Origin: Hufsiella ginkgonis
GTDB lineage: Bacteria; Bacteroidota; Bacteroidia; Sphingobacteriales; Sphingobacteriaceae
Direction: 5' to 3'
Length of the DNA: 64,000 bases
NCBI RefSeq assembly: GCF_009834915.1
Contig: NZ_WVHS01000002.1
Span: forward strand, 310,001-374,000
The position numbers were made by a program, and so were the translations under genes. Below the pieces are notes generated by a model that made no database searches, had not been told where the DNA came from, and saw only the letters and a list, made by a program, of their open reading frames with translations. Below are positions 31,467-42,980 of this stretch, piece by piece; positions within the stretch are counted from its first letter, which is position 1, and each line of letters opens with the position of its first letter.

Positions 31467-33857
31467 TTAACCGCTGCACGAGATGCAGCCATCTTCCATG
31501 CTGCAGGTGGGACCGGCAATTATATCCGGTTCGATATCTGCGACGTCGCTCTTCGCCGCGTCGATCTGCGGAACCACGGGGTCCATGTTCTTCCCGCCTT
31601 GTTTCTCCACGGTAAATTGCACCGCACGGGTAGCTGCCTGTGTACGCAAGTAGTACATCCCAGTTTTAAGACCTTTTTTCCATGCGTAGAAGTGCATCGA
31701 TGTCAGCTTCGCGGCGGTCGGGCTATCTACAAACAGGTTTAGCGACTGCGACTGGCAGATAAACGCACCGCGATCTGCCGCCATATCGATCAGGTTACGC
31801 TGCTTAATTTCCCATACCGTTTTGTAGATCTCTTTAATGTTGGCAGGTATCTCATCAATCGCCTGTACCGAACCATTGGCAGCGATGATCTTATTTTTCA
31901 TCGTGTTGTTCCACAGGCCCAACTGGATCAGGTCTTTAAGCAAGTGCTTATTTACGATGATAAACTCGCCGCTGAGGACCCTTCTCGAATAGATATTAGA
32001 AGTATACGGCTCAAAGCACTCGTTATTTCCGAGTATTTGAGAGGTGGAGGCGGTTGGCATTGGCGCCACCAGCAGCGAGTTACGTACGCCATGCCCGATC
32101 ACTTCTTTCCGCAGCGACTCCCAATCGTGCCTGCCGGAAGGCTGCACATTCCAGAGGTCAAACTGGAACTGGCCTTTCGAGAGGGGGGATCCCTCAAACG
32201 TTTCGTAGTGGCCCTGTTCTACGGCCAGGTCCTTGCTGGCGGTCATAGCCGCGAAATAGATCGTTTCAAAAATATTCCTGTTAAGGATCCTCGCCAATTC
32301 GCTTTCAAAAGGAAGTCGCAGCAGGATAAATGCGTCGGCCAGGCCCTGCACGCCTAAACCAACCGGGCGATGGCGCATATTAGAACGGCGTGCTTCTTCT
32401 ACCGGGTAGTAGTTATTATCTATGATCCGGTTCAGGTTTTTGGTAGCCTGGTATGTAACCTCGTAAAGTTTTTCGAAATCAAAATTACCGTTGATCACAA
32501 ACCTTGGGAGTGCAATAGAGGCCAGGTTACAAACCGCCACTTCATCTGCACTCGTAAACTCCATGATCTCGGTACAAAGGTTACTGCTCTTAATGGTACC
32601 GAGGTTCTGCTGGTTGCTTTTACTGTTGGCTGCGTCCTTGTACAGCAGGTAAGGAGTACCTGTTTCTATCTGCGCGTCCAAAATGGCAAACCATAGGTCC
32701 TGCGCTTTCACAGTTTTACGTGCGCGGCCTTCGCGCTCATAGCGGGCATACAGCGCTTCGAATTCCGCACCAAAACATTCGTGCAGACCTGGCGCTTCAT
32801 GCGGGCAGAACAAGCTCCAATCGCCATCGCTTTCTACGCGCTGCATAAACAGGTCGGGTATCCACAGGGCGTAAAAAAGGTCCCGCGCGCGCATCTCTTC
32901 CTTGCCATGGTTCTTACGCAGATCGAGGAACTCGAAAACATCGGCGTGCCAGGGTTCCAGGTAGATCGCAAACGCACCTTTTCTTTTGCCGCCCCCCTGG
33001 TCTACGTACCGCGCCGTGTCGTTAAACACCTTCAGCATCGGGATAATGCCGTTGCTGGTGCCATTGGTACCGCCGATATAGCTGCCGGTAGCCCGCACAT
33101 TGTGAATGGAAAGACCAATGCCACCCGCGCTTTGCGAAATGCGGGCGGTTTGTTTCAGGGTATCGTAAATACCGTCAATGCTGTCATCTTTCATGGTCAG
33201 CAAAAAGCACGAAGACATCTGCGGTTTTGGCGTCCCTGCGTTAAAAAGTGTCGGCGTAGCGTGGGTAAACCAGCGCTCGCTCATCAGGTGATAGGTTTCA
33301 ATTACGCTCGTGATATCTTCCTTATGGATCCCGAGCGCCACCCGCATGTACATATGCTGGGGGCGCTCCACGATCTTCCCGTCAACTTTCAGCAGGTACG
33401 ATTTTTCCAGGGTTTTAAACCCGAAATAGTCGAACCCGAAATCGCGGTCGTAAATGATCGAGCTGTCGAGCAGTTCCGCATGCTCCTCTACCACCTGGAG
33501 TACGTCTTCCGCAATCAGCGGCATTTTGCGGCCGGTTGCCGCATCGGTATAATGGTATAGCTTACGGACCGTGTCCGAAAATGATTTCGCGGTATTTTTA
33601 TGAAGGTTGCTCACCGCGATGCGACTGGCCAACAGCGCATAATCGGGATGTTTGGTAGTTAACGACGCAGCCATTTCCGCCGCCAGGTTGTCCAGCTCCG
33701 TGGTGCTTACGCCGTCATAAATGCCTTCTATCACTTTTTTCGCCACGTCGATCACATCCACCAGGGGACTTAGTCCATACGATAATTTCTGGATCCTTGC
33801 GGTGATCTTGTCAAATTTGACGCTCTCTTTTCTGCCGTTTCTCTTGATTACGAACAT
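31467..33857 (-). CDS. nrdA: Ribonucleoside-diphosphate reductase subunit alpha (class Ia)
   Basis: 796 residues. An N-terminal ATP-cone ([23 protein letters not shown], about 1-90) serves allosteric activity control. Catalytic residues are visible: the thiyl-radical Cys428 in [11 protein letters not shown] with flanking Asn and Glu, redox cysteines in MSSCFLL and [14 protein letters not shown], and the finger-loop region [21 protein letters not shown]. The C-terminal swinging arm ends [12 protein letters not shown], with three cysteines able to relay electrons from thioredoxin. The enzyme reduces NDPs to dNDPs. It is preceded by nrdB (45 nt) and followed by the CWC gene. Confidence 0.97.
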
Positions 33858-33902: not shown

Positions 33903-34871
33903 TTAAAAATCCTCTTCCAGCGAAAAAGTCTGTGCGTTCTTATCCGTAGAAAGCACGCCTGATTTCTGGTAGTCGCCCACCCGTTTTTCGAAGAAATTGG
34001 TCTTACCCTGCAGGGAGATCATCTCCATAAAATCGAACGGGTTGGTGGCGTTAAACAGCGCAGGGTGGCCCAGCTCCATGATCCAGCGATCGGCTACGAA
34101 CTCGATGTATTGTTTCATCAGCCGTGCGTTCATGCCGATCAGGTCCACGGGCAACGCCTCTGTGATGAATTCTTTTTCGATCTCCACGGCATCACCGATC
34201 ACCCGGTAGATCTGCTCGCGCGAAAGCTTATTCTCCAGCATACCGTATAACAGGCAGGCAAACTCGCAATGCAAGCCTTCGTCGCGGCTGATCAGCTCGT
34301 TACTAAAGGTTAGCCCCGGCATTAAACCGCGCTTTTTCAACCAGAAGATCGAGCAGAAGCTGCCCGAAAAAAATATCCCTTCTACAGCGGCGAAAGCCAC
34401 AAGCCGCTCCGCGAAGCTGCCTTTCTCGATCCACCGCAATGCCCATTCCGCTTTCTTTTTCACTGCCGGCACGGTGTCCACGGCGTGGAACAACCGGTCT
34501 TTTTCCTTCGGGTCACGGATGTAGGCATCGATCAGCAGTGCATAAGTCTCGGAATGGATATTTTCCATCATGATCTGGAACCCATAAAAACAACGCGCTT
34601 CGGGCACCTGTACTTCGCTCATAAAGTTTACGGCCAGGTTCTCGTTCACAATGCCATCGCTTGCCGCGAAGAAGGCCAGGATATGCGAAATAAAGTGCTG
34701 TTCCCCGGAGTTGAGATTCTCCCAATCCTTCATGTCGCCGGAAAGATCGATCTCTTCAGCCGTCCAGAAACTGGCCTCATGTTTTTTGTACATCTCCCAG
34801 ATTTTGGGATAATTGATGGGAAGGATCACAAATCGATCCTTGTTTTCTTTAAGCAGCGGTTCTTCGTACAT
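33903..34871 (-). CDS. nrdB: Ribonucleoside-diphosphate reductase subunit beta (class Ia, eukaryote-like R2)
   Basis: 322 residues. The di-iron site and radical tyrosine align with mouse R2: Asp72 ([10 protein letters not shown]), Glu103/His106 (MENIHSETY), Tyr110 as the radical site, Glu164 (AVEGIFF), and Glu198/His201 (RDEGLHCEF). The motif [10 protein letters not shown] is shared with eukaryotic R2. It makes and stores the tyrosyl radical that starts catalysis in NrdA. It is the first gene of the nrdB-nrdA-CWC unit. Its upstream region is a long repeat-bearing intergenic stretch in which no riboswitch or NrdR-box pair was recognised. Confidence 0.97.
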
Positions 34872-35065
34872 AGTTTTAGATAGTGGCTGATGTATTCAGC
34901 GATTGGCCGCTTCCGGCGATAGAAATGCTATCAGCCGACAGCTATCAGCCAATAGCTATAATTAAAGCGATTCTACAAAAGACACTGAACCCGTGGTAGC
35001 CGGGAAAAGGCTTTTGCCAAACCTTATTCGTGAAAGTTGGCAATACTATCTTGGCAGGTATCTGG

Positions 35066-35148
35066 CTATCAGTTGTCAGTGATCAGTTGCCAGTTGCAGT
35101 TCTCCAGGCGCTTACCCGGAACCGGTCACTGATAGCTGACAACTGATT
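35066..35148. repeat. Imperfect inverted repeat, CAGTTGTCAG type
   Basis: The left arm ATCAGTTGTCAGTGATCAG and the right arm CTGATAGCTGACAACTGAT (reverse complement ATCAGTTGTCAGCTATCAG) are about 35-50 nt apart. It is related in sequence to the repeat at 42178. Confidence 0.6.
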
Positions 35149-35337
35149 ACTCATACAGTTGCACGTCAGCCCGTGATTCTCACACGGTTCCCTTTTAATC
35201 ATCACCCGCCGGGGCGATGCACCAGGATAGTTTGGCAAAGAACGAGCTGTAAAAGTAGGGAGAAATGCGGGTGGCCGAAGAAAGTAGTTTTAAACATCGT
35301 GTGGATTATCCACATATCCCGGCCTGGGAATTTAAGA

Positions 35338-35376: not shown

Positions 35377-37713
35377 TCATTGATTTCCGCGTGTCTGCTG
35401 CATGGGGTTCAGACCCGGCGCACTGCCTCTTGGTAATACCTGCTGCTTAAAGATCTCGAAACGTGACGGCACGTATTCACGCGGCCAGCTATTATTTATT
35501 TCATCGATGTCTGCGGTTTCGCGGTACGGATCGAGCTTGATAGACTTTACCTCTTTCGTTTTTGCAAATACTTTGGAGATATGCCGCTCATCTTTCCGCC
35601 AGATATAGGCGGAGATCTTTTCCACCTCGCGGGAACCGTCGGCATACGTCCACTCGATAATCAGCGGCATGGCCAACCCGCCGCGATTGGAAAAGCTTAC
35701 TTCGTAAAAATAATTCTTAGCGTCATACAACGCTTTCTCTTCCGCACTTAAACCGGCATAAAGTTTCTGGTAGGCTTGTGTAGCCGACGGCGTGGTGGCG
35801 AACTTATCATACTTGCCGTAAAAATCCAGCAAAGCCGTATCTGTATTCACGGCAAAGTCGACGCCCGATTCACGGTTTCGCTTTGCACTGATGCTTTCCA
35901 GTGCGCGGTCGGCAACAGCACGGTCGTACGCATTTTCCAAGTTCGGGTTCCTGGTATCCATGCGGTAGTACTTTACGCTGTCAACCGAAATATCAACGGG
36001 GTCGGTGCCATAAAACCACCCGCGCCAGAACCAGTCGAGGTCAACTGCCGAGGCATCCTCCATCGTGCGGAACAGGTCTGCCGGCGTAGGATGTTTAAAA
36101 GCCCAGCGCCCGGCATATGTTTTAAAGGCGTAATCGAACAGCTCTCGTCCCATAATCGTTTCGCGGAGAATGTTAAGACCGGTTGCGGGCTTAGCGTACT
36201 GGCTCGGGCCAAAACGGACGATGTTCTCAGAATTAGTCATGATCGGCTCCAGTTCATCCTTGGGCAGCTTCATATAATCCACGATCTTATGCGCGGGCCC
36301 GCGGTTCGAGGGGAAGCGGTTGTCCCATTCCTGCTCCGCCAGGAACTGGCAAAAGGTGTTCAGGCCTTCATCCATCCAGGTCCACTGGCGTTCATCGGAA
36401 TTTACGATCATCGGGAAGAAATTATGCCCTACCTCGTGGATGATCACGCCGGTCATGCCGTTTTTTGTGGCCTCGGTATATGTGCCGTCTTTTTCGGCCC
36501 TGCCATAATTGAAGCAGATCATCGGGTACTCCATCCCGTTATTAGCCTCCACCGAAATAGCCGAGGGGTAAGGATAGGTGATGGTATGCTTCGAGTATAC
36601 TTTTAATGTATGCGCCACCAGTTTCGTCGAATAGCGGCGGTACAATGGATATGCTTCCGGGCCGTAAAGCGATTGCGCCATTACTTTCTTACCGCCGTCT
36701 ACGACGGTTGCCATGGCATCCCACACCAACCGGCGGGAAGACACCCAGGCAAAATCGCGCACGTTTTCGGCATGAAAGTTCCATGTTTTACGGGTTTTTA
36801 CGTTTCCCTTCATGGCCTGCCTTGCTTCGGCGAGCGTAACGATCTCTACCGGTTCTTTGGCAGTCTGCGCCTGGCTCCAGCGCGTTAATTGCTGCGAAGT
36901 AAGTACCTGCGCATAGTTCGAGCATAGCCCGGTCCCGTTTACCACGTGATCTGCAGGTACGTTAATGCTCACTTTGTAGTCGCCAAACGTTAATGCAAAC
37001 TCCCCGCGACCGGTAAACTGCTTGTTCTGCCAACCCTGGAAATCGCTGTAAACCGCCATCCTTGGAAACCACTGCGCCATGGTATACAGGTAGTTGCCGT
37101 CCTCGGGGAAAAGCTCATAGCCACCGCGGCCGCCGATCGTGTTCCTGTCGGAAATATTGTACCACCAAACGATCTTGAACACGAATTTCTGGTTGGGAAG
37201 CAGCACTTTAGGCAGTTCGATCCGCATCATGGTCTGGTTGATGGTATATTTAAGGGAATTGCCTGCCGCGTCTTTTACACTCTCGATGTGATTCCCCAGG
37301 TCGAGGTTATGTCCTATGATGGTCTGCAGATCCCTGGTGCTCATTTTAGGCTGGATCTTGCTGGTCTCGAACGCAGCGCTTTCCGCATCCTTTTTATGCT
37401 CATTCTCATCCAGCTGCAGCCATAGGTAGGTGAGGGCGTCGGGCGAGTTATTGGTATAGGTAATGGTTTCCGAACCGTCGAGACGCTGCTTTTCATCATT
37501 CAGCGTGGCGCTGATCTCGTAATCGGCTTTTTGCTGCCAGTATTTTGGCCCCGGAGCGCCCGAAGCGGAACGGTAAACATTCGCGTCAGGCAGGATCGTT
37601 CCCAGCTGTTCGAACTTATTGCCATGGTTGGAACCCGGGTTACCAATGTTCTGCGCCATGGAAATACCCGGCAAAAGAAATAAAGAAGCAATAAAACAGG
37701 ATCGTTTGTTCAT
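35377..37713 (-). CDS. M1-family metallopeptidase, exported
   Basis: 778 residues with a signal peptide (SCFIASLFLLPGISMAQ). The gluzincin centre is complete: NNGMEYPMICF as the exopeptidase GxMEN-like motif, IIHEVGHNFFP as HExxH, and WMDEGLNTF with the second-zinc Glu 18 residues on. The N-terminal beta domain is typical of Bacteroidota M1 aminopeptidases, and the C-terminal region has no protein-binding repeats. Its start codon overlaps the stop of the HupE gene by one base, implying co-translation. It probably trims peptides in the periplasm. Confidence 0.94.
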   Translation of the reverse strand: MNKRSCFIASLFLLPGISMAQNIGNPGSNHGNKFEQLGTILPDANVYRSASGAPGPKYWQQKADYEISATLNDEKQRLDGSETITYTNNSPDALTYLWLQLDENEHKKDAESAAFETSKIQPKMSTRDLQTIIGHNLDLGNHIESVKDAAGNSLKYTINQTMMRIELPKVLLPNQKFVFKIVWWYNISDRNTIGGRGGYELFPEDGNYLYTMAQWFPRMAVYSDFQGWQNKQFTGRGEFALTFGDYKVSINVPADHVVNGTGLCSNYAQVLTSQQLTRWSQAQTAKEPVEIVTLAEARQAMKGNVKTRKTWNFHAENVRDFAWVSSRRLVWDAMATVVDGGKKVMAQSLYGPEAYPLYRRYSTKLVAHTLKVYSKHTITYPYPSAISVEANNGMEYPMICFNYGRAEKDGTYTEATKNGMTGVIIHEVGHNFFPMIVNSDERQWTWMDEGLNTFCQFLAEQEWDNRFPSNRGPAHKIVDYMKLPKDELEPIMTNSENIVRFGPSQYAKPATGLNILRETIMGRELFDYAFKTYAGRWAFKHPTPADLFRTMEDASAVDLDWFWRGWFYGTDPVDISVDSVKYYRMDTRNPNLENAYDRAVADRALESISAKRNRESGVDFAVNTDTALLDFYGKYDKFATTPSATQAYQKLYAGLSAEEKALYDAKNYFYEVSFSNRGGLAMPLIIEWTYADGSREVEKISAYIWRKDERHISKVFAKTKEVKSIKLDPYRETADIDEINNSWPREYVPSRFEIFKQQVLPRGSAPGLNPMQQTRGNQ

Positions 37714-38321
37714 CAGAATTTAATTAACGAAATGCGTTCGGCGGCCATCACCGCGGCCAGCCCAAATATAGCAGATGACAGGAATAATATCCAGTCGCGC
37801 ACCGGCGTTTTAAATATCCTCACAAAAAACCACGATACCAGTAACGTAACCGTTACGATACAAAGCTGCCCGGCCTCCAGTCCCACGTTAAAAGCCAGTA
37901 ACCGGGGAATGACGTTATAGTCGCTCCCAAGCAGGCTTTTCAGGTAGGTAGAGAAACCGAGACCGTGAATAAGCCCGAAAAACAAGGCCAGCAGGTAAGC
38001 GATCCCAGATTCTGTTGTTGTGGAAAACGGCTTTTTAATGGTGTTCTTTCGCCATAAAATGTTGAAAAGACTGGTAAAAACGATGGTTAACGGGATCAGG
38101 AACTCGATGAGGCTGGTATTTACATGGATCACGCTCAGCGTACTTAAAGCCAGCGTAATAGAATGTCCCACCGTAAAAGCGGTTACCAGCACCAGCACTT
38201 TTTTCCATTGCGAAAGTGCGTATGGCACACATAAAACCATCACAAAAAGGATGTGATCGAACCCTTTCCAATCGCAGATATGCTGCCAGCCGAGGGTGAA
38301 GTACAAATTAAAATCAGCCAT
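37713..38321 (-). CDS. HupE/UreJ-family membrane protein
   Basis: 202 residues, about six or seven membrane helices with conserved His/Asp residues in the first part (LGWQHICDWKGFDHILFVM), FTVGHSITLALS, and FGLIHGLGFST. These are the signature His motifs of the HupE/UreJ group, whose better-known members move nickel or cobalt; other members have unproven cargo. It is the first gene of a two-gene unit with the M1 peptidase and divergent from the DUF6702 gene. The neighbourhood points to metal handling (inference). Confidence 0.85.
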   Translation of the reverse strand: MADFNLYFTLGWQHICDWKGFDHILFVMVLCVPYALSQWKKVLVLVTAFTVGHSITLALSTLSVIHVNTSLIEFLIPLTIVFTSLFNILWRKNTIKKPFSTTTESGIAYLLALFFGLIHGLGFSTYLKSLLGSDYNVIPRLLAFNVGLEAGQLCIVTVTLLVSWFFVRIFKTPVRDWILFLSSAIFGLAAVMAAERISLIKF

Positions 38322-38378
38322 TTACTCAATTTCCGGTTAATTATAGCTTTTTTTGTCGTCAGTTTAACCATTGAGCTC

Positions 38379-38855
38379 ATGTTTCAGACCCTGCTGTTTT
38401 CGTGCCTGCTTGCTTTCCACCCTTTTTATGTGAGTGTTACCGAGATAAGCTATAACAGCCGGGCAAAAACGATGGAGGTCAGCTGCAAGATGTTTTATGA
38501 CGATCTCGAGAAGGTGCTCGAGAAACAGAGCCGCCAGCCGCTAGACATCCTCAAGCCGAAAGACAAGCGGCAAATGGACCAGCTTATCGGCGATTATGTT
38601 CGCAAACACCTCGAAATCACCGTCGACGGTAAGAAGGCAGAGCTTACGTATCTTGGCTACGAGATCCAGGAAGACGGCGCCTGGAGTTATTTCGAGGCGA
38701 AACAGGTGAACACCGCCAAAAAGATCACGGTGATGGACAACCTGCTGTTTGAACAGCATCCCGAACAGATCAACATGATGCATGTTACGGTGAGCGGCCT
38801 GCGCAAAAGCACGAAACTGGACAATCCGGAGGCTATAGCCAACTTTTCTTTTTAA
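38379..38855 (+). CDS. DUF6702-family protein
   Basis: 158 residues from the ATG at 38379; the frame is open further upstream, but that part overlaps the divergent HupE gene and is not family-like. The N-terminal hydrophobic stretch LLFSCLLAFHPFYVSVTEISYN includes the HPFYVS segment typical of DUF6702. The rest is a beta-rich soluble domain (MEVSCKMFYDDLEKVLEKQ, ELTYLGYEIQEDGAWSYFEA). Function is unknown. Divergent pairing with HupE, and a faint likeness to the N-terminal periplasmic part of some HupE/UreJ fusions, suggest it works with that transporter (inference). Confidence 0.8.
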   Translation: MFQTLLFSCLLAFHPFYVSVTEISYNSRAKTMEVSCKMFYDDLEKVLEKQSRQPLDILKPKDKRQMDQLIGDYVRKHLEITVDGKKAELTYLGYEIQEDGAWSYFEAKQVNTAKKITVMDNLLFEQHPEQINMMHVTVSGLRKSTKLDNPEAIANFSF

Positions 38856-38864
38856 GTTTGTGCC

Positions 38865-39236
38865 ATGGTCCGGCGGTTACTAGCTTCTTTCCTGGTTCTG
38901 GCAATGTTGCTCTCCAACTTCACCGTGGCCATCGTTTACACGGAATTTAAGCTGAACGAAACGTATATCGCCAAAGTGCTCTGTATCAATAAAGAAAAAC
39001 CGCAGCTGCATTGTAACGGTAAATGCTATCTCGCCAAAAAATTAAAGCAAGCCGAAGAGAAGGATAAGAACGAAGAAAGGAACGGGCAAAAGTTCAGGTT
39101 CCAGGAAGCGTTCTTAACTGCAAGCGATAAATTATCCGTTCCTTTCTATTTCGTGTCGGTAACTGTCTCACAGCCCGCTTCATGTTGTCCGAGAGAACAC
39201 CGGGACGCCATTTTCCATCCGCCGCAGGCCTCCTGA
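38865..39236 (+). CDS. Small exported cysteine protein
   Basis: 123 residues. An N-terminal signal/anchor (LLASFLVLAMLLSNFTVAIVY) is followed by a conserved-looking core, LNETYIAKVLC40INKEKPQLHC50NGKC54YLAKKLKQAEEK, and a Cys pair at 107/108 before a His-bearing end (REHRDAIFH). The C-x9-C-x3-C pattern is what one would expect of a metal or disulfide site. I have the impression this core recurs in Bacteroidota beside copper-related genes, but it is unnamed. It starts 9 nt after the DUF6702 gene and precedes the MbnP/MbnH genes. Confidence 0.65.
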   Translation: MVRRLLASFLVLAMLLSNFTVAIVYTEFKLNETYIAKVLCINKEKPQLHCNGKCYLAKKLKQAEEKDKNEERNGQKFRFQEAFLTASDKLSVPFYFVSVTVSQPASCCPREHRDAIFHPPQAS

Positions 39237-39390
39237 TCCTGTATATGCGTATTTCTTAACTAAAATCATTCACGGAAAGCATTCTGCAACCTGGCTGTGC
39301 CATCAGTCCGCGGGTTTATGCCGGCTACAGGCAACCTGCTGATCGATACCACTCGTATTTGCGGTAACTGTTATTCCATAAATAACCATT

Positions 39391-40158
39391 ATGAAGACCT
39401 TCATTTTCAGGGCTGCCTTTGGGGTGAGTCTTGCCTGCATACTTTTTTCCTGTAAAAAAACAGGTACGACACCCGTGATCACCGGAACCGGGAAAGTCAA
39501 CTTAGAATTTCAACACGTTGTAGGCAGCCAGGCGCTGCAGTTGAATACACAAACCTATACCAATGCCAACGGCGACGATTATAAGGTGACCACCTTTAAA
39601 TACTACGTCAGCAATTTCAGCTTCCTGAAAGCCGACGGATCAAAAGTATCTATCCCCGAAAGTTACCTGCTGGTAAATGCCGCAGATAACGCAAGCGCCC
39701 TGCAAACCATCGAAAATATTCCGGCAGGCGATTATACCGGTGTGGAACTAACGCTCGGTGTCGATGAAGCCCGTAACTTTGCGGGCGCTCAAACCGGGTC
39801 GCTCGATCCGGCAAAAGGGATGTTCTGGAGCTGGAATACCGGCTATATTTTCCTGATGTTCGAAGGAACTTCCTCCAAATCAAGCCAAAGTGCTAACCAG
39901 TTGTTCTTCCACGTTGGTGGTGCTAAGGATCCTGCCAATGCCGTACGGAGAACCGTGCTCACCTTTCCAACGGTACTTCGTATACGATCGAACAGCGACC
40001 CCGACGTCCATATCTATACCGATGTATCGGCGCTGTTTAAGGGCAAAACGACGATCTCTTTCGCGGCTGTCAGCGGGTTCCATGGCGGCGCGAACGGCCT
40101 GCTGGTGGCCGATAATTATGTGAACGGTCTCCTCCGGGTTGATCACATCCATAATTAG
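39391..40158 (+). CDS. MbnP-family copper-associated lipoprotein
   Basis: 255 residues. The lipobox ILFSC gives lipidated Cys21. The MbnP domain is recognisable from VNLEFQHVVGSQALQLN, KVTTFKYYVSNFSFLKADGS, YLLVNAADNAS and GMFWSWNTGYIFLMFEG (Trp146 and Trp148). In the studied methanotroph system MbnP binds copper after the partner diheme enzyme MbnH converts a tryptophan to kynurenine; one of these Trp residues is the natural candidate (inference). The gene is 2 nt upstream of the MbnH-like gene, the expected partner order. Confidence 0.88.
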   Translation: MKTFIFRAAFGVSLACILFSCKKTGTTPVITGTGKVNLEFQHVVGSQALQLNTQTYTNANGDDYKVTTFKYYVSNFSFLKADGSKVSIPESYLLVNAADNASALQTIENIPAGDYTGVELTLGVDEARNFAGAQTGSLDPAKGMFWSWNTGYIFLMFEGTSSKSSQSANQLFFHVGGAKDPANAVRRTVLTFPTVLRIRSNSDPDVHIYTDVSALFKGKTTISFAAVSGFHGGANGLLVADNYVNGLLRVDHIHN

Positions 40159-40160
40159 CC

Positions 40161-41204
40161 ATGAAACGCCTTGTAATTATATTTTCCGCTCTCGCGGGAT
40201 GGCTTGTCGCAGGCCAATCTTGCACAAAAAACGACCAGGCAACGCCCGGGGCGGCAATCAGCTTCAGGAGACCTGCCAATTTCCCGGTTGCTGCATACAA
40301 TTTCGAAGAAAACACGCTGACCAAAGCCGGCTTTGAGCTGGGGCATAAATTATTTTATGAAGATGCGCTGTCGGCAGATAACAGCGTAAACTGTGGGACC
40401 TGCCATCAGCCTTTTGCTGCTTTTGCTAACCTCGATCATTCGGTAAGCCATGGGATCAACAATTGCTTCGGTACCCGCAATGCCCCGCCCTTGTTTAACC
40501 TCGCCTGGCAGAAGGACTTCATGTGGGATGGCGGTGTCGGCCACATCGAGCTATCGCCGCTCAACGCGCTTACCAACCCCTGCGAAATGGGCAATACGCT
40601 CGACAGGATCACCGCCACGCTCAGCCAAACAGCGCCCTACCCGGAGCTATTTCGCGAAGCTTTCGGCTCACCCGTGATCAATTCGCAGCGTTTGTTTAAA
40701 GCGCTCACCCAGTTCATGGGCATGATGGTTTCTGCTTCATCGAAATACGATAAAGTGATGCGAAAGGAAAATGGCGCTTCCTTTTCCCCGGATGAGCAGG
40801 AAGGGTACCGGCTATTCCAGCAAAAATGCGCGGTTTGCCACCAGGAACCGTTGTTTACCGACGGCTCTTTTCGTTCAAACGGGCTCGACGGTTATTCGAA
40901 AGACCCCGGCCGCGATACCATTACGGCCACGGGCGCAGATCGGGGGAAGTTTCGCGTGCCATCCCTCCGCAACATCGAACTTACCCGTCCGTATATGCAC
41001 GACGGCCGTTTTCTCACTTTGGAAGCCGTGCTGGAACATTATCATGCAGGTGTTAAGCAAAGCCCCGCACTGGATCCCGGCCTAAAAAAGAATCCGACGC
41101 CCGGGATCCCGCTTACCCCTAAAGAACAGTCACAAATTATCAGCTTTTTAAAAACCCTTACAGACAATGAGTTTATTCACGATCACCGTTTCGCCGAGTT
41201 ATAA
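40161..41204 (+). CDS. MbnH-like diheme cytochrome c peroxidase family lipoprotein
   Basis: 347 residues with a probable lipobox (VAGQSC, Cys21). Two c-type haem sites are present: C78GTCH and C223AVCH. Family segments are FYEDALSADNSVNCGTCH, RNAPPLFNLAW, SPLNALTNPCEMG, FRVPSLRNIELTRPYMHDGRF and LEAVLEHYHAGV. The family covers bacterial cytochrome c peroxidases, MauG and MbnH. Position directly after an MbnP gene makes MbnH the best call, with the job of oxidising a Trp of MbnP. Periplasmic side, membrane-tethered. Confidence 0.9.
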   Translation: MKRLVIIFSALAGWLVAGQSCTKNDQATPGAAISFRRPANFPVAAYNFEENTLTKAGFELGHKLFYEDALSADNSVNCGTCHQPFAAFANLDHSVSHGINNCFGTRNAPPLFNLAWQKDFMWDGGVGHIELSPLNALTNPCEMGNTLDRITATLSQTAPYPELFREAFGSPVINSQRLFKALTQFMGMMVSASSKYDKVMRKENGASFSPDEQEGYRLFQQKCAVCHQEPLFTDGSFRSNGLDGYSKDPGRDTITATGADRGKFRVPSLRNIELTRPYMHDGRFLTLEAVLEHYHAGVKQSPALDPGLKKNPTPGIPLTPKEQSQIISFLKTLTDNEFIHDHRFAEL

Positions 41205-42177
41205 ACAAGTGGCCGCGCTGCTTCTAATCCTGCTTGGCCCGGTCCTCACCTCCGAAGCCTGCGAGATCTGCGGCTGTTTTATGGGCATCACACCCTATGA
41301 CAACCAGAGCAGCTTCGCCATGCTATACCGTTTCCGCACCTTTAGCGGGTACGACGGTCAGGCGCATCCCATTTTCCCGGAAGGGGCAAAGTTCTTCCCG
41401 GCAGGAAAAGATACCGGCTCACCCGTTACGGATCACAATGGCGACCCTTCCGATTTCGAGGCGTACCGCACATTAGAGCTTCGTGGCCGTTACTTCATCC
41501 ATCAGCGGCTGGAGCTGAACGCTATCCTGCCTTATATATCCAACTCCGAACGGTACAACGGTAACCTCAATACGCTTGCCGGCGCTGGCGATATCAATTT
41601 ATTTGCCGGCTATCACCTTCTTCGTAAGCTCGGAGAACGGGTGAACCAGCGGCTTATCGCCGGCGCGGGCGTCAAACTGCCTACGGGGAAAAACGATGCC
41701 GAAAACGCGGAAGGGATCCGTTTTAATGCGTTAACACAAACCGGTACGGGCAGCACCGATGGTTTTGTATACCTGAACTACCTGGCCAGCGTCAAAAAAC
41801 TGGGGCTTAATCTCAATACCACTTACAAAGTAAACGGTCGCAACAAGGAACAGGAGAGCATCGCAAACAGCACCACTGCTAACCTGAATGTATTTTATTC
41901 TGCAGGCATCAGCCAGCGGGTTAAATTAATCCCCTCGGCACAGCTTGCCTACGAATATTCCGCCGGAGAAAAATACCAGGGAATAAAAACCGGCGAGCAT
42001 GTAATGAACAACCTCCTTGCCGGCGCGGGCCTGGACCTGTTTGTAAACAACCTCACGTTTAACCTCGCCCTGCAATCACGTGTATGGTCAGCTAAAGACG
42101 ATCACCCGCAACCCGCAGGAAGAGTGGTATTGGGTATTACATATAGTTTTAAACAGTTATATTATGCGTTAAAGTGA
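41167..42177 (+). CDS. Outer-membrane beta-barrel protein with CxxCGC start, copper-module associated
   Basis: Up to 336 residues. ATG at 41167 overlaps the MbnH gene by 38 bp; a GTG at 41209 would remove the overlap and still leave a signal peptide (AALLLILLGPVLTSEA). The mature protein begins CEICGCFMGITPYDNQSSF. The rest is a beta-barrel of the transporter/porin-like type with alternating strands (ELRGRYFIHQRLELNAILPYIS, LIAGAGVKLPTGKND, NLNVFYSAGISQRVKLIPSAQLAYEYSAG). The N-terminal Cys triad could bind metal at the periplasmic mouth. It is probably the outer-membrane partner of the MbnP/MbnH pair, perhaps for copper import (inference). Confidence 0.75.
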   Translation: MSLFTITVSPSYKQVAALLLILLGPVLTSEACEICGCFMGITPYDNQSSFAMLYRFRTFSGYDGQAHPIFPEGAKFFPAGKDTGSPVTDHNGDPSDFEAYRTLELRGRYFIHQRLELNAILPYISNSERYNGNLNTLAGAGDINLFAGYHLLRKLGERVNQRLIAGAGVKLPTGKNDAENAEGIRFNALTQTGTGSTDGFVYLNYLASVKKLGLNLNTTYKVNGRNKEQESIANSTTANLNVFYSAGISQRVKLIPSAQLAYEYSAGEKYQGIKTGEHVMNNLLAGAGLDLFVNNLTFNLALQSRVWSAKDDHPQPAGRVVLGITYSFKQLYYALK

Positions 42178-42250
42178 CCAGTTTCCAATGATCGGTTTTG
42201 CCCGCAGTACGAAAATAACAGGGAACTGAAAACCGATCACTGGAAACTGG
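42178..42250. repeat. Long inverted repeat between outer-membrane gene and cutC
   Basis: CCAGTTTCCAATGATCGGTTTT (42178-42199) is matched by AAAACCGATCACTGGAAACTGG (42229-42250), 21 of 22 positions, with a 29-nt loop. It is followed by ACTCCTTTTTATC, so it may end the upstream transcript. It resembles the repeat at 35066. Confidence 0.75.
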
Positions 42251-42272
42251 AAACTCCTTTTTATCTTGCCCC

Positions 42273-42980
42273 ATGCTAACCCTTGAGATCTGCGCCAATT
42301 CCATCACTTCCGCCATTGCGGCTGAAGAGGGACGTGCGTCGCGGATCGAACTTTGCGATAACCTGGGAGAAGGCGGTACGACACCCTCTTACGGTACCAT
42401 CAGTTACTGCAAACAAGCGCTTAGTATCCCGGTGATGGTATTGATCAGGCCAAGAGGCGGGGACTTCGTATATACCGACCACGAGTTCGAAGTGATGAAG
42501 CGGGATGTGATCCATTGCCGGGAAGCTGGCTGTGAAGGGATCGTCACCGGCATTTTACTGGCCGATGGCACCGTAGACAAGGCCAGAACGGCCGCATTGA
42601 TCTCGTTGGCAAGGCCGATGCAGGTCACCTTCCACCGCGCATTCGACCAGGCCGATGACCTTCTTTCCGCACTTAACGACATTATTTCCCTCGGCTGTGA
42701 TCGTGTGCTCACCTCCGGCGGCCAGTTATCTGCTTTATCAGGGATCAGCATGATCCGGAAACTGGTAGCTGCCGCCGGTAATCGCATCAGTATCATGCCG
42801 GGCGCAGGTGTCAACGAAACAACCATCGCAGACGTGGCGCGCCTGAGCGGCGCCTCAGAGTTTCATGGCTCGGCAAAGATAGCTGTCGGCGCTCCTGTAT
42901 CAGGCGGCAATGCCGTTATTACCCGCACGAGTGCCGCAAAGGTAAATGCCATGCGTTTACAACTGGATTCACTCGCCTGA
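42273..42980 (+). CDS. cutC: Copper homeostasis protein CutC
   Basis: 235 residues, a TIM-barrel of the CutC family. Typical segments are LEICANSITSAIAAEEGRASRIELCDNLGEGGTTPSYG, PVMVLIRPRGGDFVYTDHEFEVM, VTFHRAFDQADD, DRVLTSGGQ and IMPGAGVNETTIAD. CutC was named from copper-sensitive mutants and binds Cu(I) in some species, though its biochemical role is still debated. Its place right after the MbnP/MbnH/outer-membrane genes supports a copper link. A TATCTTG box ends 4 nt before the ATG. Confidence 0.95.
   Translation: MLTLEICANSITSAIAAEEGRASRIELCDNLGEGGTTPSYGTISYCKQALSIPVMVLIRPRGGDFVYTDHEFEVMKRDVIHCREAGCEGIVTGILLADGTVDKARTAALISLARPMQVTFHRAFDQADDLLSALNDIISLGCDRVLTSGGQLSALSGISMIRKLVAAAGNRISIMPGAGVNETTIADVARLSGASEFHGSAKIAVGAPVSGGNAVITRTSAAKVNAMRLQLDSLA

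Follow-up and report, generated by a model that had tools for sequence, protein, structure and literature searches.

A conserved smallCys–MbnP–MbnH–barrel gene set in Bacteroidota with a candidate copper-sensing leader

Which genes of this Bacteroidota locus belong together, and are they controlled by, or do they include, the small cysteine-containing protein encoded among them? Copper acquisition in Bacteroidota has been little described, and the preliminary description of this DNA had read its genes, from HupE, M1 and DUF6702 through CutC, as a single copper-acquisition module. The window, a stretch of 64,000 nucleotides, comes from the 5.2 Mb genome of Hufsiella ginkgonis. Its genes were called with a simple ORF caller, and the open reading frames, spacings and motifs noted before, including Trp146 and Trp148 of MbnP, are all present as placed. 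The features are as follows.

35377–37713, − strand: M1; reading frame open, Pfam match
37713–38321, − strand: HupE; reading frame open, Pfam HupE_UreJ_2
38253 (listed start) to 38855, + strand: DUF6702; reading frame open, Pfam match
38865–39236, + strand: small Cys protein (smallCys), candidate CruR/CutF-like copper-sensing translation-arrest leader
39210–39236, + strand: 3′ end of smallCys, codons I-F-H-P-P-Q-A-S-stop, candidate ribosome-arrest site
39237–39390, + strand: leader–mbnP intergenic region, 154 nt, long for an operon
39391–40158, + strand: MbnP-like putative copper-binding lipoprotein (Cys21); PF20243, E 2.8e-57
40161–41204, + strand: MbnH-like di-heme enzyme of the MauG/bacterial peroxidase family; CCP_MauG, E 5e-47
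41167–42177, + strand: outer-membrane beta-barrel (~12 strands, CEICGC near the N-terminus), candidate copper channel
42273–42980, + strand: CutC; reading frame open, Pfam match

Pfam searches confirmed M1, HupE_UreJ_2, DUF6702, MbnP, CCP_MauG and CutC, and matched no family for either smallCys or the window's barrel. The listed start of DUF6702 overlaps HupE, so that translation probably begins at an ATG near 38379 instead. MbnP and MbnH are separated by 2 nt, and the barrel gene overlaps that of MbnH by 38 nt.

Analysis of gene neighbourhoods showed that the conserved unit consists of the four genes smallCys–MbnP–MbnH–barrel (38865–42177, + strand) and is not a larger module. Around relatives of the barrel, these four genes are contiguous and on one strand in Daejeonella and Pedobacter, which hold the closest named relatives of the window's barrel, and in other genera; the contiguous set is found in many Bacteroidota families. 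When the barrel, smallCys and MbnP were each searched across one set of 148 Bacteroidota genomes, matches were found in 43, 56 and 39 genomes, respectively. In the co-occurrence test, which took barrel matches of at least 40 bits (29 genomes), Fisher p was 5e-9 for barrel and MbnP, 7e-7 for smallCys and MbnP and 6e-7 for barrel and smallCys, values that overstate independence because the genomes are related and the counts are not independent. In 24 MbnP clusters, smallCys or the barrel lies no more than 8 kb from MbnP, for which the chance expectation is well under 1% given one copy per ~4 Mb genome. A further 100 regions were retrieved and mapped for gene neighbourhoods. MbnH is within three genes of MbnP in 51 of 52 MbnP copies; on the same strand and within four genes of the same 52 copies are smallCys (18), the barrel (16) or both (14), leaving 34 MbnP–MbnH pairs without a nearby smallCys and 36 without a barrel. 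The preliminary description had made its proposal depend on linkage of both the barrel and smallCys to MbnP/MbnH, and this linkage is present across Bacteroidota well beyond chance.

The adjoining genes behave differently. That everything from HupE/M1/DUF6702 through CutC forms one large module, as the title of the preliminary description had it, agrees with the adjacency of these genes in the window, where DUF6702 ends only 9 nt before the start of smallCys (whose transcript, for this reason, may begin with another gene). In other genomes, however, DUF6702 and HupE are divergent neighbours with M1 beyond HupE (loci L130–L133), or DUF6702 is followed by M1 (L135–L139 and L141), in both arrangements away from MbnP. 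M1–HupE/DUF6702 is thus a separate conserved cluster, located elsewhere in other genomes, and the other 100 loci contain no homologue of HupE, M1, DUF6702 or CutC. With the former cluster independent and CutC unlinked, the single six-family module was rejected, and we consider it very unlikely that these flanking genes belong to the unit. Genes of another kind do accompany it: in Pedobacter relatives the four-gene set is followed by SCO1 and cytochrome c (Pfam assignments on one relative's copies), which points to supply of a copper oxidase, and SCO1, PCuAC, YHS, PepSY_TM and YtkA genes are found near smallCys loci.

The identities of MbnP and MbnH hold. MbnP scores 194 bits against PF20243 (cut-off 27) and 58.5 bits against the equivalog TIGR04052, below its cut-off of 140, while MbnH scores 198 bits against TIGR04039, below its cut-off of 363; with such sub-cut-off equivalog scores the two are best described as MbnP-like and MbnH-like members of wider families. 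A phmmer search left MbnP without a PDB relative, but a fold search with its AF2 model (pLDDT 73) found, as the only PDB entries at E ≤ 0.001, the chains of M. trichosporium MbnP (7l6g). In the 7l6g study, the Cu(I) site is reportedly formed by His, Met and a kynurenine made from the first Trp of the WxW motif. The site residues are kept in most of 59 sequences: Met144 in 52, Trp146 in 56, Trp148 in 51 and His174 in 57. MbnH matches M. trichosporium MbnH (PDB 6e1c) at E 5e-33, has two CxxCH motifs in 57/57 sequences and carries a MauG-type Tyr294, aligned with the Tyr of 6e1c, in 54/57. Both proteins are of the MbnP/MbnH kind, as the preliminary description had read them. That MbnP–MbnH pairs occur widely in organisms other than methanobactin producers has been reported before (PMC3621798). 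The earlier remark that no methanobactin genes were in view can be extended to the whole genome, where no MbnB passes the cut-off (best match 59 bits, cut-off 325), and the presence of methanobactin in this genome was rejected.

The smallCys protein of the window has 123 aa, with an N-terminal hydrophobic export signal, the motif C40-x9-C50-x3-C54, a variable spacer and the terminal sequence IFHPPQAS followed by the stop codon. Its CC pair (near residues 108–109) is real and is not conserved in relatives. Over 41 diverse members no residue is invariant except the Cys triad, the CxG glycine and the Pro-Pro pair, and the mean frequency of the top residue is 0.52 in the Cys region, 0.47 at the end and 0.22 in the spacer. 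Pro-Pro followed by two to seven residues ends 65 of the 66 homologues (by two to four residues in 63 of these 65), against a background of ~4% (16 of 393 small ORFs). The C-terminal end is mostly I-F-H-P-P and generally [IV]-F-[HR]-P-P, and its IFHPP codons vary synonymously among close relatives. The homologues have the Cys triad 63–73 residues ahead of Pro-Pro and a median gap of 123 nt to the next gene. On the same strand, that next gene (n = 66) is a TonB receptor in 27 cases (34 if one intervening gene is allowed), MbnP in 16 and the barrel in six. No relative of smallCys was found among solved structures. Membership in DUF2946 (PF11162) was rejected, as none of the 41 members matched it at E ≤ 10; DUF6769 gave weak matches to two members and was found in 0 of the 61 genomes searched. 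A cutF-like RNA stem-loop in the 154-nt gap was likewise rejected: the gap has no unusual RNA fold (z −0.44, no better than shuffles) and is little conserved among relatives.

Two kinds of copper-responsive leader have a comparable layout. CruR has a Cys motif, RAPP three residues from its end, a spacing of 45 residues between them and a 162-bp gap, and stands first in copper operons that include a TonB transporter, SCO, PCuAC and MbnPH (PMC9426467); its arrest at RAPP has been demonstrated in vitro (PMC12992588). CutF has CxxxC and a Pro-rich end and boosts production of a copper-detoxifying oxidase (PMC9973294). CutF-like proteins have been delimited (Ozturk 2023) by a length of <150 aa, Pro-Pro in the last 15 residues, an N-terminal signal and a same-strand gene ≤1000 nt downstream, and smallCys falls within these limits with its 123 aa, Pro-Pro three residues from the end, a gap of 154 nt and a signal judged by its hydrophobic start. 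The Pro-Pro end, the Cys–Pro-Pro spacing, the long gap and the downstream genes suggest that smallCys is probably the operon's copper sensor, acting as an arrest leader, and not a carrier; the preliminary description had placed it among the components of the pathway, and its anatomy makes a regulator the likelier role. Were it instead a copper chaperone or relay, stably anchored in the inner membrane and passing copper on through the Cys triad, with a structural C-terminal Pro-Pro, this would fit the invariance of the triad (SCO, too, has CxxxC as its copper motif), the N-terminal hydrophobic segment and the linkage to SCO and PCuAC. A structural role poorly explains, however, why Pro-Pro should keep a set distance to the stop codon, why the spacer should be near-constant in length yet variable in sequence, and why operons that are tightly packed elsewhere should have a long gap ahead of the gene that follows, so that we regard such a chaperone as improbable.

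The arrest leader can be placed more broadly. The class as such is already known, since a 2023 survey, which has 29 clusters of CutF-like proteins, included members from Bacteroidota (PMC9973294), and smallCys is possibly among those clusters. In a 2025 survey restricted to RAPP/RGPP ends, copper-type leaders were missing in Bacteroidota, an absence that is expected if the leaders of this phylum end in FHPP. We see about an even chance that the smallCys family constitutes a copper-sensing arrest leader found throughout Bacteroidota, its sequence independent of DUF2946, with an F-[HR]-P-P arrest end and in control of interchangeable envelope copper importers, either a TonB receptor or MbnP–MbnH–barrel.

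The fourth gene encodes an outer-membrane barrel whose CEICGC (residues 32–37) lies behind a signal peptide. Its AF2 model, derived from ten sequences and of modest confidence (pLDDT 62), has ~12 strands and in Foldseek matches FapF and the COG4313 channel 4rl8. The N-terminal CxxC is found in 16/16 MbnP-linked barrels (CDxCG or CDFCN type); barrels that adjoin DUF3179 have other Cys patterns, and those linked to SCO/PCuAC carry GRPDGHAP in place of CxxC. The N-terminus of the barrel would be a copper-handling one. The window's barrel does not match PF13557 (Phenol_MetA_deg), which is matched by 3/13 of its relatives (best E 2.5e-7). The operon might still be copper-related with the barrel serving as a general channel or as a scaffold for MbnP: the closest folds, FapF and the COG4313 channel, are not known for copper, and barrel relatives that lack CxxC adjoin DUF3179 genes. 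Given the presence of CxxC in every MbnP-linked barrel and the co-occurrence of barrel and MbnP across genomes, we find this a possible but less likely role than that of a copper channel.

Gene linkage, conserved residues, folds and leader architecture together lead us to favour, with some confidence, a model in which 38865–42177 is a copper-acquisition operon under a nascent-chain copper sensor, with a MbnH–MbnP–barrel pathway. The product of the first gene would be this sensor. By the time the ribosome reaches the C-terminal F-H-P-P, C-x9-C-x3-C, ~65 residues earlier, would have emerged from it and crossed the inner membrane; as ~30 residues are held in the ribosome tunnel and ~17 span the membrane (PMC9973294), a spacer of 65 residues should leave the Cys site periplasmic at the stall. 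Copper at this site would alter the stall at Pro-Pro and hence expression of the genes past the 154-nt gap, which, by analogy with CruR, may be turned on when copper is scarce. MbnH is predicted to convert Trp146 in MbnP into kynurenine by oxidation; judging from its M. trichosporium counterpart, MbnP would bind Cu(I) at a site that includes Met144 and His174. The barrel would move copper across the outer membrane, its periplasmic CxxCGC receiving the metal. Another metal could be involved, or copper could be detoxified instead of acquired, and the case of CutF, which raises a copper-detoxifying oxidase, illustrates that leaders of this type can head defence genes. In methanotrophs, however, such kynurenine-site proteins are copper-repressed and tied to copper supply, and at other loci the place of MbnP behind smallCys is taken by TonB receptors, which are importers; a non-copper or detoxifying role therefore appears quite unlikely.

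The occurrence of this leader on MbnP–MbnH–barrel operons, its ending in FHPP and its partnership with a CxxC barrel appear to be undescribed in the literature consulted. If the acquisition model is true, one small gene marks copper-uptake operons throughout the phylum, and the TonB receptors and barrels of these operons become predictable as copper importers. Metal-sensing arrest peptides would then extend beyond RAPP/RGPP ends, and the kynurenine–copper system of methanotrophs would be found in common bacteria, under regulation and without methanobactin.

Compared with MbnP and MbnH of Methylosinus trichosporium OB3b (7l6g and 6e1c; TIGR04052 and TIGR04039), the proteins described here share the gene pair, the fold, WxW, the Met, the His and a Tyr-bearing di-heme MauG-like partner, but are divergent in sequence, score below the equivalog cut-offs, occur without methanobactin genes and have leader and barrel partners. 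CorA/CorB and MopE of gammaproteobacterial methanotrophs are similar in their kynurenine-assisted copper binding, di-heme partner and repression by copper (PMC3912023), and differ in belonging to another sequence family and in having two His ligands; the account consulted describes no barrel or leader for them. The barrel shares the 12-strand channel fold of FapF and the COG4313/Phenol_MetA_deg channels, from which its N-terminal CxxCGC and copper gene context set it apart. CutF and CutF-like proteins (Rhodobacter capsulatus) resemble smallCys in CxxxC, the Pro-rich C-terminal end, the Sec signal and the control of downstream genes (established for CutF and only proposed here), whereas the stem-loop over the ribosome site of CutF has no counterpart in the 154-nt gap. 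CruR (DUF2946) of Bordetella pertussis, from the cruR–crtA–PepSY operon, is likewise a small exported leader with a Cys motif, a C-terminal Pro-Pro near the stop codon, conserved spacing and a long gap, and the operons it heads, with a TonB transporter, SCO, PCuAC, MbnPH and PepSY, are alike in context. The smallCys proteins differ from it in the absence of DUF2946, in C-x9-C-x3-C instead of CXXC, in F-H-P-P instead of R-A-P-P (and thus from the tested RAPP/RGPP arrest motifs), in a spacer of 63–73 residues that is longer than that of CruR and CutF (45), and in their occurrence in Bacteroidota.

The M1 peptidase and HupE genes, together with a divergent DUF6702 gene, form a conserved cluster of their own in Bacteroidota (loci L130-L133), and the order of these genes is rearranged in L134, L135-L139 and L141. 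The same genome carries two more HupE_UreJ_2 genes, which are mutually divergent (G000:C12:935721-937014). The features of this part of the window are:

35377-38855, M1 peptidase-HupE, divergent from DUF6702
35036-35241, minus strand, Cobalamin riboswitch (60 bits)
33903-34871 and 31467-33857, minus strand, class I ribonucleotide reductase pair

The reductase pair lies directly downstream of the riboswitch on the minus strand, an arrangement which suggests that the reductase is under B12 control.

Relatives of the predicted outer-membrane barrel that start with CCSAG or CSCAG adjoin DUF3179 genes (L057, L060, L070, L076 and L086) and constitute with them a separate conserved pair. Leader-barrel-SCO-PCuAC operons without MbnP are found in L056, L058 and L085, where the barrel variant starts with GRPDGHAPI, which replaces the CxxC.

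In six loci (L097, L101, L111, L116, L042 and L072), the gene between the leader, a candidate copper-sensing translation-arrest element, and a TonB receptor encodes a lipoprotein that has a YtkA-like domain as well as segments rich in Met and His; this lipoprotein is possibly a copper-binding partner. The gene order leader-TonB receptor-PepSY_TM, seen in L098, L108 and L115, is identical to that of cruR-crtA-PepSY in Bordetella.
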